Of a DNA stretch of 25,752 nucleotides, positions 3,199 through 24,744 are shown piece by piece; positions within the stretch are counted from its first letter, which is position 1; each line of letters starts with the position of its first letter. The DNA lies in the IMG/VR virus record IMGVR_UViG_3300050034_000058, positions 1 to 25,752 of that record. One strand, given 5' to 3'. A program made the position numbers and the translations under genes. The stretch comes from a virus. The notes under the pieces were generated by a model. The model was not told the DNA's origin. It saw nothing but the letters and a program-made list of their open reading frames with translations, and did no database searches.

Positions 3199-5619
3199 CT
3201 ATTTCGCCGTCCAGGTTGCAGCAGCAGTGCAGACATACAATGTCGTCGTCGCGCCACCGTTTGTGTTGCTGTACAGAGAGCCCACGTTGCCTGCCACACA
3301 GAGAGCGGCTGACGGCACACCCGAAGAGCTATACCAACACGCACGGCCTCCGGCCCAGCACATCTCAGTGACGGCGGAATTGCCGATCATGATTTCATTG
3401 CTCTGAGTGGCTTGTGCGTTGTATCCGATGACGGTGTCATTACTCAGGCCATCTACGGAATTGGTTGCACCCTCACCGACGAATGTCGAAGTTGCCGTGG
3501 TCGTGCCGGAACCAGAGTATGCACCGACCGCTGTGTTGCCCGCCCCACTCACCAGAGCGCCTAGCGCACCCTTGCCCACGCCAGTGTTATCGTTTCCAGT
3601 TGTCACGGCAGGCATTGCGCCTTGCCCCATACCTGTGTTTTCATAGCCAGTCGTATCGGCGTTGAGAGTATTGAGGCCAAACGCGCTGTTGTTGTAGCCC
3701 GTTGTGTCCGCGTAGAGGGCGCCAGATCCTACAACCGTGTTATTGCTTCCGGTCGCACTAGCTTGGATAGCACCACCAAAGGATTCGTTTCCGGAACCGA
3801 ACAGCTTGACGGCAGCCCCGTTGATTGTCAGGGCCAGGACGTTGCCTTGCAGCACGGTCTGTGTTACTCCAGTGTTGCCAATCACCACCTGATTACTTTG
3901 GGTTGCCTGCGCGTTGTAACCGAGAACAGTTGTGTTGGTGAGGCCGTTTACACTGTTGTTTGCATTCAAACCCACAAATGTTGAGTAGGAGGTAGTCGTC
4001 ATCGGTGTTGACGAATTGAATCCAGCATAATCACCGACTGCTGTGTTGCCTGCGGCAGCAATAATCTGAGCCAAGGTGGATTTACCAACACCTGTGTTAT
4101 CGCTACCAGTGGTGTTGGCAACCAAAGAGCCTTGTCCGATGCCCAAGTTCTCATTTCCGGTCGTGTTGGCATTCAGAGAGTTCAAACCAAGTGCCACGTT
4201 GTTTGTGCCGGTCGTGTTGACGTACAAGGCACCTTGACCAACAGCCACATTGTTCATACCCGTGGTGTTCGAGTTGAGAGTGCCCGGTCCCACGGCCAAG
4301 TTGCCAGTGCCGGTTGAGAAGGCTGTAAGACCGCCACCAAGGTTCACTGAACCAGTTCCAACTCCGGTGGAAGTAACGCTCATTCCATTGATGAGAGGAA
4401 CCGTTATCGGTCCTGTGATAGCACCGCCACCTATGGGCAGGTATCCCGCAGTCGGACCTTCTGAGAAGGAAATTTCATCCAGGTTTTCAGATACAGTTAT
4501 TGCCGTGCCGGTTGTCGCCCCAATGTCAATCTGGAATTGCAAACCTGACGTTGAAGCCCACCCAGTTGGGAGGGTCGTTGCCACGTAGGACATATTGATA
4601 ACGTTTACATTTCCGTCCACAGAAATGGAGTCAAAATGCTCACAAGGCAAACCTCCGGAACAACTGGTATCTCCAGCAACACGGTGGAACTTCTCAATGA
4701 TGTGGTGCCACGTCCCGGAAGTCAGGTTGCAAGCGGCAGAAGACGTCTGCCAGGGACTGGAGTTATTAGCGATCTGCCAGTACCCTAAAGTCTGGTTACA
4801 CTGAGTGCCGAACATGAAATCAAGATTGTCACTGGCATCGAAGATGAACGAATCGAACTCGATGTTGTCAGCCGCACTTCCATTGGTTATGTAAACCTCG
4901 AAGTCGGAAGTGATCGAAGTGCAGCTATCACAAGATCCCGCCGAGTAAACCCAGAGTGCGTTGGTCTGGGTAGATGTGGCATTCGTGGTCTCAGAAATGA
5001 GCATCGAATGACCGTCTAGCGACGGCGACACATTGTTTATAGTCTGAGAAGTTGACGCAGGAGTATCCGTGCCACCTGGATTGCAAGCAGACAGAACGCA
5101 GACTGCCTTCCACTTCGTTAGAGAATCATCGATATTGCTGAACGATAGTGGCGGACCGCCAGTTTGGGCGTCCACGTATTGCTTGGTTGCGGCCTGCAGA
5201 TTGGTTGTCGGATCAGCAGTAAGCGTGACAGTGTTGAAGTGCCCTGCCGACGAATACACGTTATCCGTAGCATGTAGATCGGCTAGCCATAAGGTTCCGT
5301 TGTAACTGCCAAGAGGTCCGGAACCAAGGTCAAATGTCCCGCTACCAGTCAACTCAAGCTCGCCTGCCGGTGTTCCTCCAGGGGCCCAAAATATTGTCGG
5401 GTTGCTTGAGGCAGTGACGTAGAGGTTATCGAAAGAGTCTCCAGTCAAGGCAGACAACGGGACATAAGCCGACACATTGGCAGGGTTGCTTTCGTCATGC
5501 TGCCAGATGACGTTGACACTACCCGAAGGAGCAGCCGGGACGGTATTCGAAAAGTTGACATTCTGTGCCCCGGCCACTAATCCAAATGCAAAGAGAATGC
5601 AGGTTATGAACTTCGTCAT
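3199..5619 (-). CDS. Repeat-rich tail fibre / adhesin-like protein with signal peptide
   Basis: An 806-aa protein. Residues 1-18 look like a Sec signal peptide (Lys3, hydrophobic core, AGA cleavage site before Gln19), which is unusual for a virion protein. Residues 141-150 carry the fibre motif ATKQYVD. Residues about 158-390 resemble a concanavalin A/LamG-like sandwich with a TSGTWHH strand. Residues 430-590 and 605-752 are two copies of a YadA-head-like beta-roll array with units such as TGxxNxxxGxxxL; the shared GYNAQATQSN lies at 567 and 732, so the two copies are about 165 residues apart. The last 50 residues form a separate Cys-containing cap. The start overlaps the DUF2460 stop (ATGA), with GGAG 8 nt upstream. 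It is likely a receptor-binding side or tip fibre, or alternatively a cargo adhesin secreted by the host. The fold is inferred from the repeat pattern. Confidence 0.75.
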   Translation of the reverse strand: MTKFITCILFAFGLVAGAQNVNFSNTVPAAPSGSVNVIWQHDESNPANVSAYVPLSALTGDSFDNLYVTASSNPTIFWAPGGTPAGELELTGSGTFDLGSGPLGSYNGTLWLADLHATDNVYSSAGHFNTVTLTADPTTNLQAATKQYVDAQTGGPPLSFSNIDDSLTKWKAVCVLSACNPGGTDTPASTSQTINNVSPSLDGHSMLISETTNATSTQTNALWVYSAGSCDSCTSITSDFEVYITNGSAADNIEFDSFIFDASDNLDFMFGTQCNQTLGYWQIANNSSPWQTSSAACNLTSGTWHHIIEKFHRVAGDTSCSGGLPCEHFDSISVDGNVNVINMSYVATTLPTGWASTSGLQFQIDIGATTGTAITVSENLDEISFSEGPTAGYLPIGGGAITGPITVPLINGMSVTSTGVGTGSVNLGGGLTAFSTGTGNLAVGPGTLNSNTTGMNNVAVGQGALYVNTTGTNNVALGLNSLNANTTGNENLGIGQGSLVANTTGSDNTGVGKSTLAQIIAAAGNTAVGDYAGFNSSTPMTTTSYSTFVGLNANNSVNGLTNTTVLGYNAQATQSNQVVIGNTGVTQTVLQGNVLALTINGAAVKLFGSGNESFGGAIQASATGSNNTVVGSGALYADTTGYNNSAFGLNTLNADTTGYENTGMGQGAMPAVTTGNDNTGVGKGALGALVSGAGNTAVGAYSGSGTTTATSTFVGEGATNSVDGLSNDTVIGYNAQATQSNEIMIGNSAVTEMCWAGGRACWYSSSGVPSAALCVAGNVGSLYSNTNGGATTTLYVCTAAATWTAK

Positions 5620-9764: not shown

Positions 9765-9787
9765 GGGGTTCCTCGTAATACACAGGA

Positions 9788-9803
9788 GGGGACTTTCGTC
9801 CCC
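9788..9803 (-). promoter_or_regulatory. Perfect hairpin with GAAA tetraloop after the tail tube gene
   Basis: On the minus strand the 6-bp stem GGGGAC/GTCCCC closes a GAAA (GNRA) tetraloop. It sits in the 55-nt gap between the tail tube stop and the chaperone start. No U-run follows, so it is not a classic terminator. It more likely protects the 3' end of the abundant tube mRNA or dampens downstream expression. Confidence 0.55.
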
Positions 9804-9819
9804 ACCATGTCAGAGTTGG

Positions 9820-10236
9820 TTACAGGTAAGTCTTGACACCGGAAATCTTGATCTTGAGATCAAAGGTGGCAGGCTTGTCCAGTGGCCAAGAAGGCGTGAA
9901 CGACTCCACGATTCCACTGAAGGCGCAGCTATTCGTGGTGCCATACAGTGCCTTCATGGGAACTGCCACACCAGCAAGACGTATGGCCTCAAGAGCTACC
10001 TGAGTGGTGTCTCCAGGCAGGAAGAAACCCTTGACATCAGCAGTGCCAGGGTCCTGCGTGCTGCCGATGAAAGTGTCCACTCCGTTGACAGTTGCCATCG
10101 TTGTGGTTTTTTCGGTGGCAACCTTGTCTCCGCTGATGGCAATGCTGGTTACACCAGCGAGTGTGGTGAATGTAGCGGGAGTCAAAACTGATGCGAACTC
10201 AAACGCATCTGAGATGCCTACAATGGGGTTACTCAT
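9820..10236 (-). CDS. Major tail tube protein
   Basis: A 138-aa beta-rich protein immediately upstream of the chaperone pair, the standard place for the tail tube subunit. The N-terminal half has alternating small and hydrophobic strands with an AISGDKVATEKTTTMATV segment. The C-terminal half contains SGIVESFTPSWPLDKPATF, typical of tube proteins with a lambda V/HK97 gp13-like sandwich fold. Polymerised rings would form the tail tube. The ATG overlaps the end of the glycosyltransferase gene by 8 nt. A GNRA hairpin follows the stop. The assignment comes from position and general pattern, since tube proteins diverge strongly. Confidence 0.8.
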   Translation of the reverse strand: MSNPIVGISDAFEFASVLTPATFTTLAGVTSIAISGDKVATEKTTTMATVNGVDTFIGSTQDPGTADVKGFFLPGDTTQVALEAIRLAGVAVPMKALYGTTNSCAFSGIVESFTPSWPLDKPATFDLKIKISGVKTYL

Positions 10237-18288: not shown

Positions 18289-18364
18289 TGGCAGGGGTGA
18301 CGGGGATCGAACCCGCATCATCCGGGTTTGGAGTCCGGCGTTCTGCCACATGAACTTCACCCCT
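18289..18364 (-). tRNA. tRNA-Trp (anticodon CCA)
   Basis: A full 76-nt cloverleaf. The acceptor AGGGGTG pairs with CACCCCT, followed by G and an encoded CCA end. The D-arm is GTTC/GAAC with GG in the loop. The anticodon loop is CTCCAAA, giving CCA (Trp). The T-arm is GCGGG/CCCGT with a TTCGATC loop. Two oddities are A at position 8 (usually U) and an A31-C39 mismatch at the base of the anticodon loop. It is embedded between capsid and large terminase genes, 23 nt from the terminase start, so RNase P and 3' processing would cut the polycistronic transcript here. Confidence 0.93.
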
Positions 18365-18447: not shown

Positions 18448-18455
18448 ATTCGTGA

Positions 18456-18470
18456 GCAGCACACTGCTGC
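18456..18470 (-). promoter_or_regulatory. Second hairpin after the capsid gene
   Basis: GCAGCA and TGCTGC pair perfectly around a 3-nt loop, 6 nt after the capsid stop and just before the terminator-like hairpin. The double hairpin probably shields or ends the capsid message (inference). Confidence 0.45.
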
Positions 18471-18476
18471 GGTTGG

Positions 18477-19679
18477 TTAAGCGTTGGTGGTGAGCAACTG
18501 AACCGATTCCTGCAACGTGCAACGCTGGTCGGTGCGGCGATAGCCGAGAACAACTGTCTGTCCGTTCAATGCTGCGATTTGATCGAGCACCTTGACGTAA
18601 ATGTTGCTGTCGCCACGATCACCGATCACCCATCCAGCAGAAAAATTGCCGAACAAGACTGCTCCGGAAACTGCCGGAGATGCGGTGTACATGGGCATTG
18701 CGCTGGAGAAGGACACAGGGAAGCCAAGCAGACGAGCCTGACCATTCGCATCGTAGGTCACATAGGTCTGGAACTGTGACGCAGCGATCTGCGCTTTATA
18801 CAACCTGTGAAATTCCCCACGATTGATCAGGAAGGAAGCACCGGAATAGTACGCGGCCTTCAGTGCAGCAACCAAGTCGAGGACAGTGCTGATGGTCAGA
18901 GCAGCGGTCGTCTGAACAGTTGCGCCATTCAGATAACCCAGAGGCATTCCTGTACCAGTACCAAGAGAGGCGCTGCCGATGAACTGACCCTCTTCGTAGT
19001 TGTAAACTGCTCGCGCCAAATCGGAAGTTACGAACTGGCTCAATGCTTTTACATCCTGCATGAGTTCCCAGCTAATTGCGATGCTGTTGCCCGCCATGAA
19101 AGCAGACAAAGTCGTGGTGTTGAACTGAGGAACGGAAGTGCCGAAAGCGTTTACACCGGAGTTGGTGCTCTCTGCCTTGGCCGTTGCAACAGACTTGGCG
19201 GATTGATACGGCAGCTTGATGTCCATTTCCGTGGTGATGACGCGGCTCAGCTTGCGAGCGGATGCTTCGATCACCGCCAGATTGGGGATGGAGGGATCAG
19301 TCTGGTTTGGCACCAAGTAACTGCCGTCCGCTGCTGTTCCGCCTTCGGCGAGTGCCGCGTTACGGAAGTCGCGAGTTTTGAAAGCATTCCAGAAAGCAGT
19401 AGCGTACTCGGCGGTGCAGTTGTTGAACTTCTTGGTGGCACCCTTGAATTCCGGAACCACGATCTGGTTGGTGGGCTGTGCTACTTCGAGAAGGCCCTTG
19501 TCAACGGCTGCGACGCGAGTCAGGTTGGTGTTGATGGCGTCGAGTTCCTTCGTCCAGTTGCTGAACATTTCGTCTTCAGCGGACGTGAACTGACCCTTTT
19601 CAGCAGTTGCCTTGGTGAGCAACTCTTGCTGAAGATTCAGAATTTCCTTTTTGCGAGCGTTGAGAGTCTTGCTATCCAT
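18477..19679 (-). CDS. Major capsid protein (HK97 fold)
   Basis: 400 aa from the ATG at 19677-19679, preceded by AAAGAGG; an earlier in-frame ATG at 19736 lacks a ribosome-binding site. Residues 1-70 form a charged coiled coil (the delta-type scaffold domain removed by the protease). The rest has the HK97 order: VIEASARKLSRVI, the FGTSVPQF strand, an A-I-S-W-E-L-M-Q-D spine helix region, TGTGMPLGYLNG, the FLINRGEFHRLY strand-helix and the L-G-F-P-V segment followed by IGDRG. It builds the icosahedral head. Its place between small and large terminase genes is unusual; normally it follows the protease. Confidence 0.95.
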   Translation of the reverse strand: MDSKTLNARKKEILNLQQELLTKATAEKGQFTSAEDEMFSNWTKELDAINTNLTRVAAVDKGLLEVAQPTNQIVVPEFKGATKKFNNCTAEYATAFWNAFKTRDFRNAALAEGGTAADGSYLVPNQTDPSIPNLAVIEASARKLSRVITTEMDIKLPYQSAKSVATAKAESTNSGVNAFGTSVPQFNTTTLSAFMAGNSIAISWELMQDVKALSQFVTSDLARAVYNYEEGQFIGSASLGTGTGMPLGYLNGATVQTTAALTISTVLDLVAALKAAYYSGASFLINRGEFHRLYKAQIAASQFQTYVTYDANGQARLLGFPVSFSSAMPMYTASPAVSGAVLFGNFSAGWVIGDRGDSNIYVKVLDQIAALNGQTVVLGYRRTDQRCTLQESVQLLTTNA

Positions 19680-23119: not shown

Positions 23120-23353
23120 TCATGAGGCCGTCACCTTGGAATCCTCCGCTGGCGCATCGGACCTTATCTCAATACTGTCCGCTGGCTCAGTTTCCCAAAT
23201 AGGTCGGACTCTCTCTACGTGGGTGGAAGTCGGAACAGCTACATCTGCTTCTCGGATCGGTTCCACGACCACCGGCTTCTTACTCATCAGTCGCCCGAAT
23301 GCTCGGCTTACCGGATTCATCGATCTCCAAACTGCCTTTGCGGATTTGCTCAT
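23120..23353 (-). CDS. Small basic/acidic protein of unknown function (77 aa)
   Basis: The ATG at 23351-23353 opens a 77-aa protein with a basic first third (S-K-S-A-K-A-V-W-R-S-M-N-P, then A-F-G-R-L-M-S-K-K) and an acidic Glu/Asp/Pro-rich remainder. No family is recognised. A longer frame open to 23578 overlaps the 123-aa gene and is rejected. The ribosome-binding site is weak (ACAGGTCAG). The gene follows the 3' repeat of the 123-aa gene. Confidence 0.6.
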   Translation of the reverse strand: MSKSAKAVWRSMNPVSRAFGRLMSKKPVVVEPIREADVAVPTSTHVERVRPIWETEPADSIEIRSDAPAEDSKVTAS

Positions 23354-23401
23354 ATCTGACCTGTAATACGAAGCCAAATCATGCCGTGCAATTATCAAAC
23401 T

Positions 23402-23438
23402 GCGGGGCCGGTGGACACGGCCCCATTGTTGATGGTTA
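23402..23438 (-). repeat. Stop-codon-linked hairpin repeat, copy A
   Basis: Read on the minus strand, the element begins with the TAA stop of the 123-aa gene and continues CCATCAAC, then the 7-bp stem GGGGCCG/CGGCCCC with a 7-nt loop, then GC. Two other genes end in the same element. Confidence 0.75.
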
Positions 23439-23807
23439 TGCTGCCGATGCCTTCCACTCGGTCTCAAATTTAATATCGTCGTGAAAGAACAGGGTTTCCA
23501 TGACATCGTCCAGATGCTCACTAATGATGTCCCGAGCGATGCCACCCTCAGGCGCGACCTTGAACATCGCCATGACAACGGACATTACACCCGTATAATC
23601 CATGACTGTGTTCAGGTCTGCATCATCGACAAGCTGATTAAGAACGATGTGAAACGCCTTGTGGAATTCATCATGCGGAGAAGGTTCTTGCTCAAAGTTG
23701 TTCTCGACCAATTTCTGGACCGACTCCTCGAACTGGGCTCCTGCTGCGATCTCGTTCTCGGTAAGTGGAATCGGGTCCTGCTCCAGTACATCGATTTCTG
23801 GTTCCAT
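23436..23807 (-). CDS. Acidic protein of unknown function (123 aa)
   Basis: A helical, strongly acidic protein. The first 35 residues are Glu/Pro-rich, then H-K-A-F-H-I-V-L-N-Q-L-V and D-Y-T-G-V-M-S-V-V-M-A-M-F form hydrophobic helices. No family is recognised. A strong CTGGAGGC ribosome-binding site precedes the ATG at 23805-23807. The gene ends in K-A-S-A-A, and its TAA is the first codon of repeat copy A. Its start region (GGAGGCAAnAnATGGAA) resembles that of the 118-aa gene, which suggests that these genes share cassette-like boundaries. Confidence 0.72.
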   Translation of the reverse strand: MEPEIDVLEQDPIPLTENEIAAGAQFEESVQKLVENNFEQEPSPHDEFHKAFHIVLNQLVDDADLNTVMDYTGVMSVVMAMFKVAPEGGIARDIISEHLDDVMETLFFHDDIKFETEWKASAA

Positions 23808-23830
23808 TTATTGCCTCCAGTGAATCTGTT

Positions 23831-23866
23831 GCGGGGCGGGTCGCCCAGCCCCACGGTTGATGGTTA
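23831..23866 (-). repeat. Stop-codon-linked hairpin repeat, copy B
   Basis: The element begins with the TAA of the 99-aa gene: TAACCATCAAC, then GTGGGGC paired with GCCCCGC around a GGG/CCC inner stem. The stem bases differ from copy A yet still pair. Confidence 0.75.
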
Positions 23867-24163
23867 AGCTGCGGTGATTTCCTCTGCGGCGATGAGAAAT
23901 GGAAATGTCTCGCGAATGCGAGCTTCCAACCGCTTCATTTCGGGCGTGCCCATAAACCATTCATGTTCAGGGTCGCCGTTGATCTGCGCGAGCGCCCCGA
24001 CCAAATCCGCCATCGGATCGAGGAAGAGCGAACGCTGCGGGAGAGCTTCAAAGAATTCACATGCGAAAGTCTGAGCATCTTCGATTGAAGCAAAGGTGCA
24101 AAAGGACAGCAGCATCGTATCCTTGAGTTGTGTTTGCAATTGTTTCTTTTCGGTGCGTGTCAT
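23864..24163 (-). CDS. Protein of unknown function (99 aa)
   Basis: I start at the ATG 24161-24163, preceded by GGAG about 12 nt away; the frame stays open to 24211 but that extension overlaps repeat copy C. The protein has a basic N-terminus (M-T-R-T-E-K-K-Q), a hydrophobic helix with F-A-C-E-F-F-E-A-L and a C-terminus ending in I-T-A-A. It may be a small regulatory or anti-host protein; no family is recognised. The TAA begins repeat copy B. Confidence 0.68.
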   Translation of the reverse strand: MTRTEKKQLQTQLKDTMLLSFCTFASIEDAQTFACEFFEALPQRSLFLDPMADLVGALAQINGDPEHEWFMGTPEMKRLEARIRETFPFLIAAEEITAA

Positions 24164-24192
24164 ATACAAGAGTCTCCAAATCAAAGTAGGTT

Positions 24193-24231
24193 GCGGGGCC
24201 GGCAATTTCACCGACCCATGGTTGTGGGTTA
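24193..24231 (-). repeat. Stop-codon-linked hairpin repeat, copy C
   Basis: The element begins with the TAA of the 118-aa gene: TAACCCACAACC, then GGGTCGG paired with CCGGCCC (one T-G wobble) around an 8-nt loop, then CGCAAC. The changed stem bases keep pairing, which points to selection for the hairpin. Confidence 0.72.
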
Positions 24232-24585
24232 CCTACCACGGGTGAGGGCATCGACGATTTCGCGATTCGCCGGGTCCTGCTGGTAGTACTCGATTGCGGC
24301 CTTGTGATTTGCTGCCTTTTCCGCCCAACGCTTGGTGATGTTCGCGGCAATGCGCTTGTGTGCCCTGGTGTACTTGGCTCCCGGCGTGGGATTGTACTTG
24401 ATATACCCGAGTGCCGCCATAAAATCACAGTTCTGCTTCCAGAACGGTGAATCCATGTGGGTGTTATGGTGCAGCACCTTCATGAACTCGATTGCGGGAT
24501 CAATGGTCAACAAGTTGACACAGCAAGCAAGCAGGACGCGCCTGGTGTCGCGTAAATACTTAGCAGGTAATTCGTCAGTTTCCAT
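24229..24585 (-). CDS. Protein of unknown function (118 aa)
   Basis: The ATG at 24583-24585 has an excellent AGGAGG ribosome-binding site; an in-frame ATG 16 codons upstream lacks one. The first half is helical (Y-L-R-D-T-R-R-V-L-L-A-C-C-V), the second half is basic with K-Y-T-R-A-H-K-R-I-A and may contact nucleic acid (inference). No family is recognised. It is the first gene after the strong terminator at 24.7 kb, so a promoter must lie in 24586-24718, but I could not identify a convincing -35/-10 pair there. Confidence 0.7.
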   Translation of the reverse strand: METDELPAKYLRDTRRVLLACCVNLLTIDPAIEFMKVLHHNTHMDSPFWKQNCDFMAALGYIKYNPTPGAKYTRAHKRIAANITKRWAEKAANHKAAIEYYQQDPANREIVDALTRGR

Positions 24586-24719: not shown

Positions 24720-24744
24720 AAGGCCGCCCGGTTAAGGCGGCCTT
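24720..24744 (-). terminator. Rho-independent terminator after the DUF6876-like gene
   Basis: The minus strand has AAGGCCGCC, a 7-nt loop, GGCGGCCTT, then a TTATTTT run. The 9-bp GC-rich stem plus U-tract is a strong terminator for the operon at 24.8-25.7 kb. Confidence 0.9.

Follow-up and report, generated by a model that had tools for sequence, protein, structure and literature searches.

A stop-anchored hairpin element between small, interchangeable genes in three related siphovirus-like phage contigs

Introduction

The promoter early stem-loops (PeSLs; Arbiol et al. 2010, Comeau et al. 2014) of T4-type phages are described as composite promoter-terminator motifs, and these stem-loop cassettes are repeated between small genes and mediate modular shuffling among related phages (PMC4503421). 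In the Cluster K mycobacteriophages, many non-structural genes are bounded by the short conserved repeats SAS and ESAS, which go with the start codon of the gene downstream and are dispersed across the right half of the genome; an ESAS consists of an inverted repeat, whose spacer varies, and the 13-bp SAS that follows it beside the start codon, and a hairpin in the mRNA received little support in that study (PMC3203893). A third system is formed by integron cassettes and CALINs, also in phages (PMC9892861), whose attC sites are defined by a box at either end, RYYYAAC and GTTRRRY (PMC12901181).

Here we describe an element of about 40 nt from the window, by which we mean the whole stretch of 25,752 nt of IMGVR_UViG_3300050034_000058 that was analysed (W), and from two related contigs, IMGVR_UViG_3300036889_000031 (L005, denoted V) and IMGVR_UViG_3300047539_000162 (L006, denoted X). 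Compared with the PeSLs, all ten copies are likewise intergenic stem-loops between small variable genes that are shuffled between related phages, whereas our element is anchored to a stop codon, is without a detected promoter or T-tract and belongs to a siphovirus-like and not a T4-type phage. PeSLs and SAS/ESAS are the closest precedents; as a shuffling joint the element resembles a PeSL, minus its promoter and terminator tail. The likeness to SAS/ESAS lies in short conserved repeats at gene boundaries, but the anchor is here the upstream stop codon and all copies sit in one array; the inverted repeat plus start-codon SAS of an ESAS was not found in our linkers, which differ downstream of the hairpin and have only GGAGG/GGAG in common. 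With integron cassettes and CALINs the array shares one-ORF modules that end in a foldable site, have the same orientation and are reshuffled, but the element is a much shorter site without the R''/R' box pair, and no integron integrase was found.

Results and Discussion

Siphovirus-type genes for terminase, portal, protease, HK97-like capsid and tail lie on the minus strand of the window, and the gene annotation, with its HK97-type head genes, marks the phage as siphovirus-like and not T4-type. Protein searches with the products of genes A and C led to L005 and L006, where the matching DNA is 71-96% identical to the window and mostly collinear with it. The array lies near the minus-strand start of the window, with genes A, B and C between a terminator (24744-24720) and gene J (23353-23120), and it neighbours a replication-initiation gene, a position from which the array genes may be early genes. 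The features are as follows.

24720..24744, minus strand: canonical intrinsic terminator, a 10 bp stem and then TTATTTT, just before the array
24229..24585, minus strand: gene A, 118 aa, without known family; the L005 copy is 94% identical (dN 0.02, dS 0.10)
24192..24231, minus strand: element copy W1, gene A stop TAA, CCCACAACCAT, hairpin GGGTCGG..CCGGCCC, CGCA
23864..24163, minus strand: gene B, 99 aa, without known family; among the three phages only in the window
23830..23866, minus strand: element copy W2, gene B stop TAA, CCATCAACCGT, hairpin GGGGC(U)GGG CGA CCCGCCCC, GCA
23436..23807, minus strand: gene C, 123 aa, no reliable family match; homologues in L005 and L006 at different array positions
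23401..23438, minus strand: element copy W3, gene C stop TAA, CCATCAACAAT, hairpin GGGGCCG..CGGCCCC, GCA
23120..23353, minus strand: gene J, 77 aa, the constant gene at the end of the variable array in each of the three phages

The three proteins A, B and C have no obvious relation to one another, as had been judged by eye, and neither Pfam, PHROGs, PADLOC nor NCBIfam gave anything reliable on the function of the array genes. The predicted fold of the gene C product is mostly helical, at low confidence (mean pLDDT 67). Since dN/dS is below 0.5 for the shared genes A, C and E (purifying selection), these are real genes.

The starting point of this work was a sequence-only reading in which three genes in a row were said to end in the same element, and the three copies are indeed in place on the gene strand, each starting with the TAA of its gene (stops at 24231, 23866 and 23438 on the minus strand). 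One stem had to be redrawn: that of the gene B copy, given as GGGGC/GCCCC, is GGGGC(U)GGG/CCCGCCCC. The pattern TAACCNNCAACNNTGGG has 3 exact matches in the window, as against 0.33 expected with two mismatches allowed. A covariance model was trained on the seven copies of L005 and L006 alone, with the window copies left out, and when run on the window it returned exactly the three copies with 59.5, 38.9 and 38.1 bits (E 7e-12 to 3e-7), while the next-best score was 7.8 bits, about 30 bits below the copies. Nothing like the element was found elsewhere in the window. The further copies at gene ends that had been named as support for the element exist, four in L005 and three in L006 at the same locus, which brings the total over the three contigs to ten copies, each immediately downstream of a TAA and on the gene strand. 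The stop codon of all ten element-bearing genes is thus TAA, compared with TGA in 10, TAG in 7 and TAA in 7 of the 24 other ORFs of the window (an uncurated ORF set).

Invariant across the ten copies are TAA, CAAC, GGG...CCC and CA, with loops and downstream linkers varying; conservation is best in the flanks CAAC and GCA and in the base of the stem, and not in the loop. Each copy has a GC-rich hairpin of 7-9 bp, with a bulged U in W2 and a bulged A in V2, which is mostly followed by GCA and is often bracketed by a direct repeat CAACC...CAACC. Stop and stem are 9-12 nt apart, the distance being 11 nt in seven copies, 9 nt in two others and 12 nt in the remaining one, and the gap from hairpin to the next ATG is about 19-50 nt. 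In 9 of the 10 linkers GGAGG or GGAG lies 4-10 nt upstream of this ATG, and the downstream gene therefore has its own ribosome-binding site. A module accordingly runs from the end of one hairpin through a short linker, the GGAGG ribosome-binding site, the ATG and the ORF to the next TAA and hairpin. An upstream ORF or reinitiation start within the hairpin (ATGGGG/GTGGGG) was considered and rejected, being unconserved, with AAGGGG in three copies.

Two gene ends in L006 deviate from this pattern. Gene I ends in TAACCGCAACGCAACCAATCC (4066-4090, plus strand), i.e. the flanks of the element without its hairpin, possibly through a deletion between the CAAC repeats. At 5229-5262 (plus strand) the gene C stop is followed by a different hairpin, TAACACTGGGGCAGCTTCGCGGCTGCTCC, and then by the window's own CAGTTTGATAAT.

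Between syntenic flanks the window reads A-B-C-J, L005 A-D-C-E-F-J and L006 I-G-E-H-C-J, and gene E, for instance, follows C in L005 and precedes it in L006. The homology between the window and L005 runs through gene A and stops where the hairpin of gene A ends (W 1557), that between the window and L006 starts with the stop codon that precedes C (W 1884), continuing via hairpin and linker into C, and the block shared by L005 and L006 consists of hairpin, E, hairpin and linker (V 2179-2584). Gene C itself contains two homology edges in its 5' part, at W 2077 and W 1980. For pairs of copies with the same upstream gene, the hairpins are 91% and 95% identical in two of three cases, with the downstream linker differing, and the third pair (W3/V3) is only 63% identical. 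Since most homology breaks within the array coincide with the element or its linker, the earlier suggestion of a cassette boundary is well supported by comparison of the three genomes: L005 and L006 share the element and the locus, with different and reordered small genes between the copies. The coincidence is partly built in, because the elements are alike and BLAST matches extend into them; for the same reason it is the change of gene identity across elements that can be followed, and not the exact cross-overs.

Further relatives were sought with the array genes, both flanking genes and the capsid gene, which gave the same two array contigs and two fragments, L044 and L045, in neither of which the covariance model finds a match. 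Neither the array DNA nor gene C had a match in any cultured phage. A looser pattern found 21 stretches in IMG/VR. The best site outside the group, on an unrelated phage contig (L014, 372-422, minus strand), has a stop, CAACC, a GC hairpin and GCA and scores 35.8 bits; it is not claimed as a copy because about one such score is expected by chance at that collection size, by a rough estimate. A similar stop, CAACC, GC hairpin and GCA site on another unrelated phage contig (L013, 7693-7736, plus strand) scores 28.9 bits, and both sites could be chance at collection scale. The single match in genome_contigs (L033) was dismissed, having no array and only 12.5 bits. Neither the IMG/VR pattern search nor the genome_contigs search has demonstrated a copy outside this phage group.

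The changed stem bases had been read as still pairing and hence as indicating selection for RNA structure, a claim that did not hold up. Two-sided changes occur in 0 of the 7-8 stem pairs, and the differences among the ten copies are one-sided (G-C to G-U); RNAalifold on the ten copies likewise detected no pair with changes in both partners, and its covariation term was +0.14. By pair counting, 91% of cells are paired, with pair types no more numerous than in shuffles. When 5' and 3' halves were swapped between copies the mean was -16.4 kcal/mol, as for the native hairpins (-16.4; permutation p = 0.52), and the folding z-scores of the linkers are modest (-0.35 to -2.6). Because two-sided changes are lacking, swapped halves are equally stable and z-scores modest, these data do not demonstrate selection on the stem at the RNA level. 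Every copy has the hairpin, yet its conservation could be at the level of DNA or of RNA.

As for transcription signals, the terminator before the array is identical in sequence in L005 and similar in L006. The same scan that detected it (24720-24744) called none on the gene strand at any copy, and no U-tract follows the hairpins, the longest T run in the ten linkers being 1-4. Rfam gave a tRNA as the sole gathering-score match in the window and, at E up to 10, nothing sensible for the element. By the Rfam, T-tract/terminator and box-pair scans the element is ruled out as an Rfam family, an intrinsic terminator or an attC site. A scan for sigma-70-like promoters, to which the search was confined, found none on the gene strand of the window region, and in L005 one gene-strand match inside gene F and none in the linkers. 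Because T-tract and promoter are both lacking, the array is probably one transcript that begins after the terminator at 24720.

Hairpins next to stop codons are also seen outside the array, where capsid and tail genes too end in a stop, CAAC and a hairpin, with stems unrelated to that of the array element. A gene end in the tail region (window 9780-9822, minus strand) reads TAACCAACTCTGACATGGTGGGGACGAAAGTCCCCTCCTGTGT (TARCCAACTCTGACATGG..GGGGAC GAAA GTCCCC), an extended hairpin with a GAAA loop that is kept in the two relatives. Its stem shows a truly compensatory replacement of A-U by G-C in L006, with TAA and TAG interchanged as the stop codon. The capsid gene end (window 18454-18479, minus strand) reads TAACCAACC-GCAGCA GTG TGCTGC, is similar in L040, L041 and L044, and is followed by the terminator-like GCCTCA..TGAGGC-TTT. 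Since capsid and tail genes have such hairpins, the latter with a compensatory change, a role in mRNA is favoured for the stop-adjacent hairpins of this phage group, which stops short of a proof for the array itself. The sequence-only reading had also proposed a reusable 3'-UTR, which appears plausible from the near-fixed stop distance and the two structural genes that end in stop, CAAC and hairpin.

The element recurs at one locus only, with near-fixed geometry and with changing gene content between its copies. The stem would start close to where a ribosome positioned on the stop codon has its downstream edge. We propose, at roughly even confidence for the proposal as a whole, that it is a reusable intercistronic hairpin, specific to this phage family, which serves as punctuation between the small accessory genes of a polycistronic array and has a role in both mRNA and gene swapping. 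In the mRNA, the hairpin would fold at the leading edge of the ribosome terminating at TAA, once the last ribosome stops, and the folded 3' stem may then slow decay by blocking 3'-5' exonucleases, insulate neighbouring cistrons, or both, and would do so without ending transcription. In the DNA, alike copies between genes may offer homology for general or phage recombination, such that gene swaps would leave the ORFs unbroken.

The copies may instead be pure linker homology: recombination and gene conversion between modules would have spread a common spacer, whose hairpin has no role in RNA and persists as a cassette joint. The absence of covariation and the stability of swapped halves agree with this, and the near-identical hairpins (91%) between different gene pairs, V2 (D/C) and X1 (G/E), are expected under conversion of the element; we nevertheless regard it as unlikely, as a stem of 7-9 bp is kept in 10/10 copies despite varying loops and drifting flanks, its distance from the TAA is almost fixed, and unrelated stems occupy the same post-stop site at the ends of capsid and tail genes and of gene C in L006. 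Conservation that is highest in the CAAC and GCA flanks and the stem base, and a real terminator just upstream of the array, would also suit an antitermination or processing signal, or a protein-binding site in RNA or DNA, in which a phage or host factor reads CAACC-GGGG...CCCC-GCA. Sites of the nut, put and stoperator type are not usually present once per gene and anchored to the stop codon. A copy after every gene, always stop-anchored, is unusual for them; moreover the loops are unconserved, unlike those of boxB-type sites, and Rfam has no match even at E up to 10, which makes such a signal quite unlikely.

The strong GC-rich hairpin immediately past the stop might be taken for a weak terminator or attenuator, with each hairpin reducing transcription of the next gene to give graded expression. 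This we consider improbable: there is no T-tract, the scan calls the upstream terminator but no copy, and genes past a real terminator would be silent because no promoter was found in the linkers. The resemblance to an integron array, with one ORF and one 3' hairpin per module, the same orientation and shuffled order, and a tyrosine recombinase in L005 located 2.9 kb upstream of the first element, might point to a dedicated site-specific recombination site, folded as a single strand like attC, at which a recombinase inserts or excises modules. It is, however, very hard to credit. The RYYYAAC...GTTRRRY pair is absent from both strands of the ten linkers, with a lone box in X1 only, and about 40 nt compares poorly with the folded multi-box attC. 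No integron integrase was found in the window, itself a genome fragment, and the L005 recombinase scores 67 bits against the 265-bit integron-integrase cut-off and matches ordinary phage integrases. That the element is the recognition site of a dedicated exchange or RNA-processing machinery unrelated to attC/IntI, which inserts, removes or cuts out one-gene modules in an integron-like or operon-dicing manner, is in our view very unlikely. We retain the intercistronic hairpin as the preferred reading.

Phages constantly swap small accessory genes but seldom leave the joints visible, whereas here a recognisable 40-nt element forms the joint. Because every module stays translatable, the element marks where an accessory gene starts and ends, and could be used to search for small phage genes not yet known. 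Should the hairpin control mRNA as well, it would show how newly acquired phage genes can work at once. Among the other features of the window, a tRNA-Trp(CCA) gene (18289-18364, minus strand) is situated between the genes for terminase and capsid, where it overlaps the longest reading frame of the terminase.
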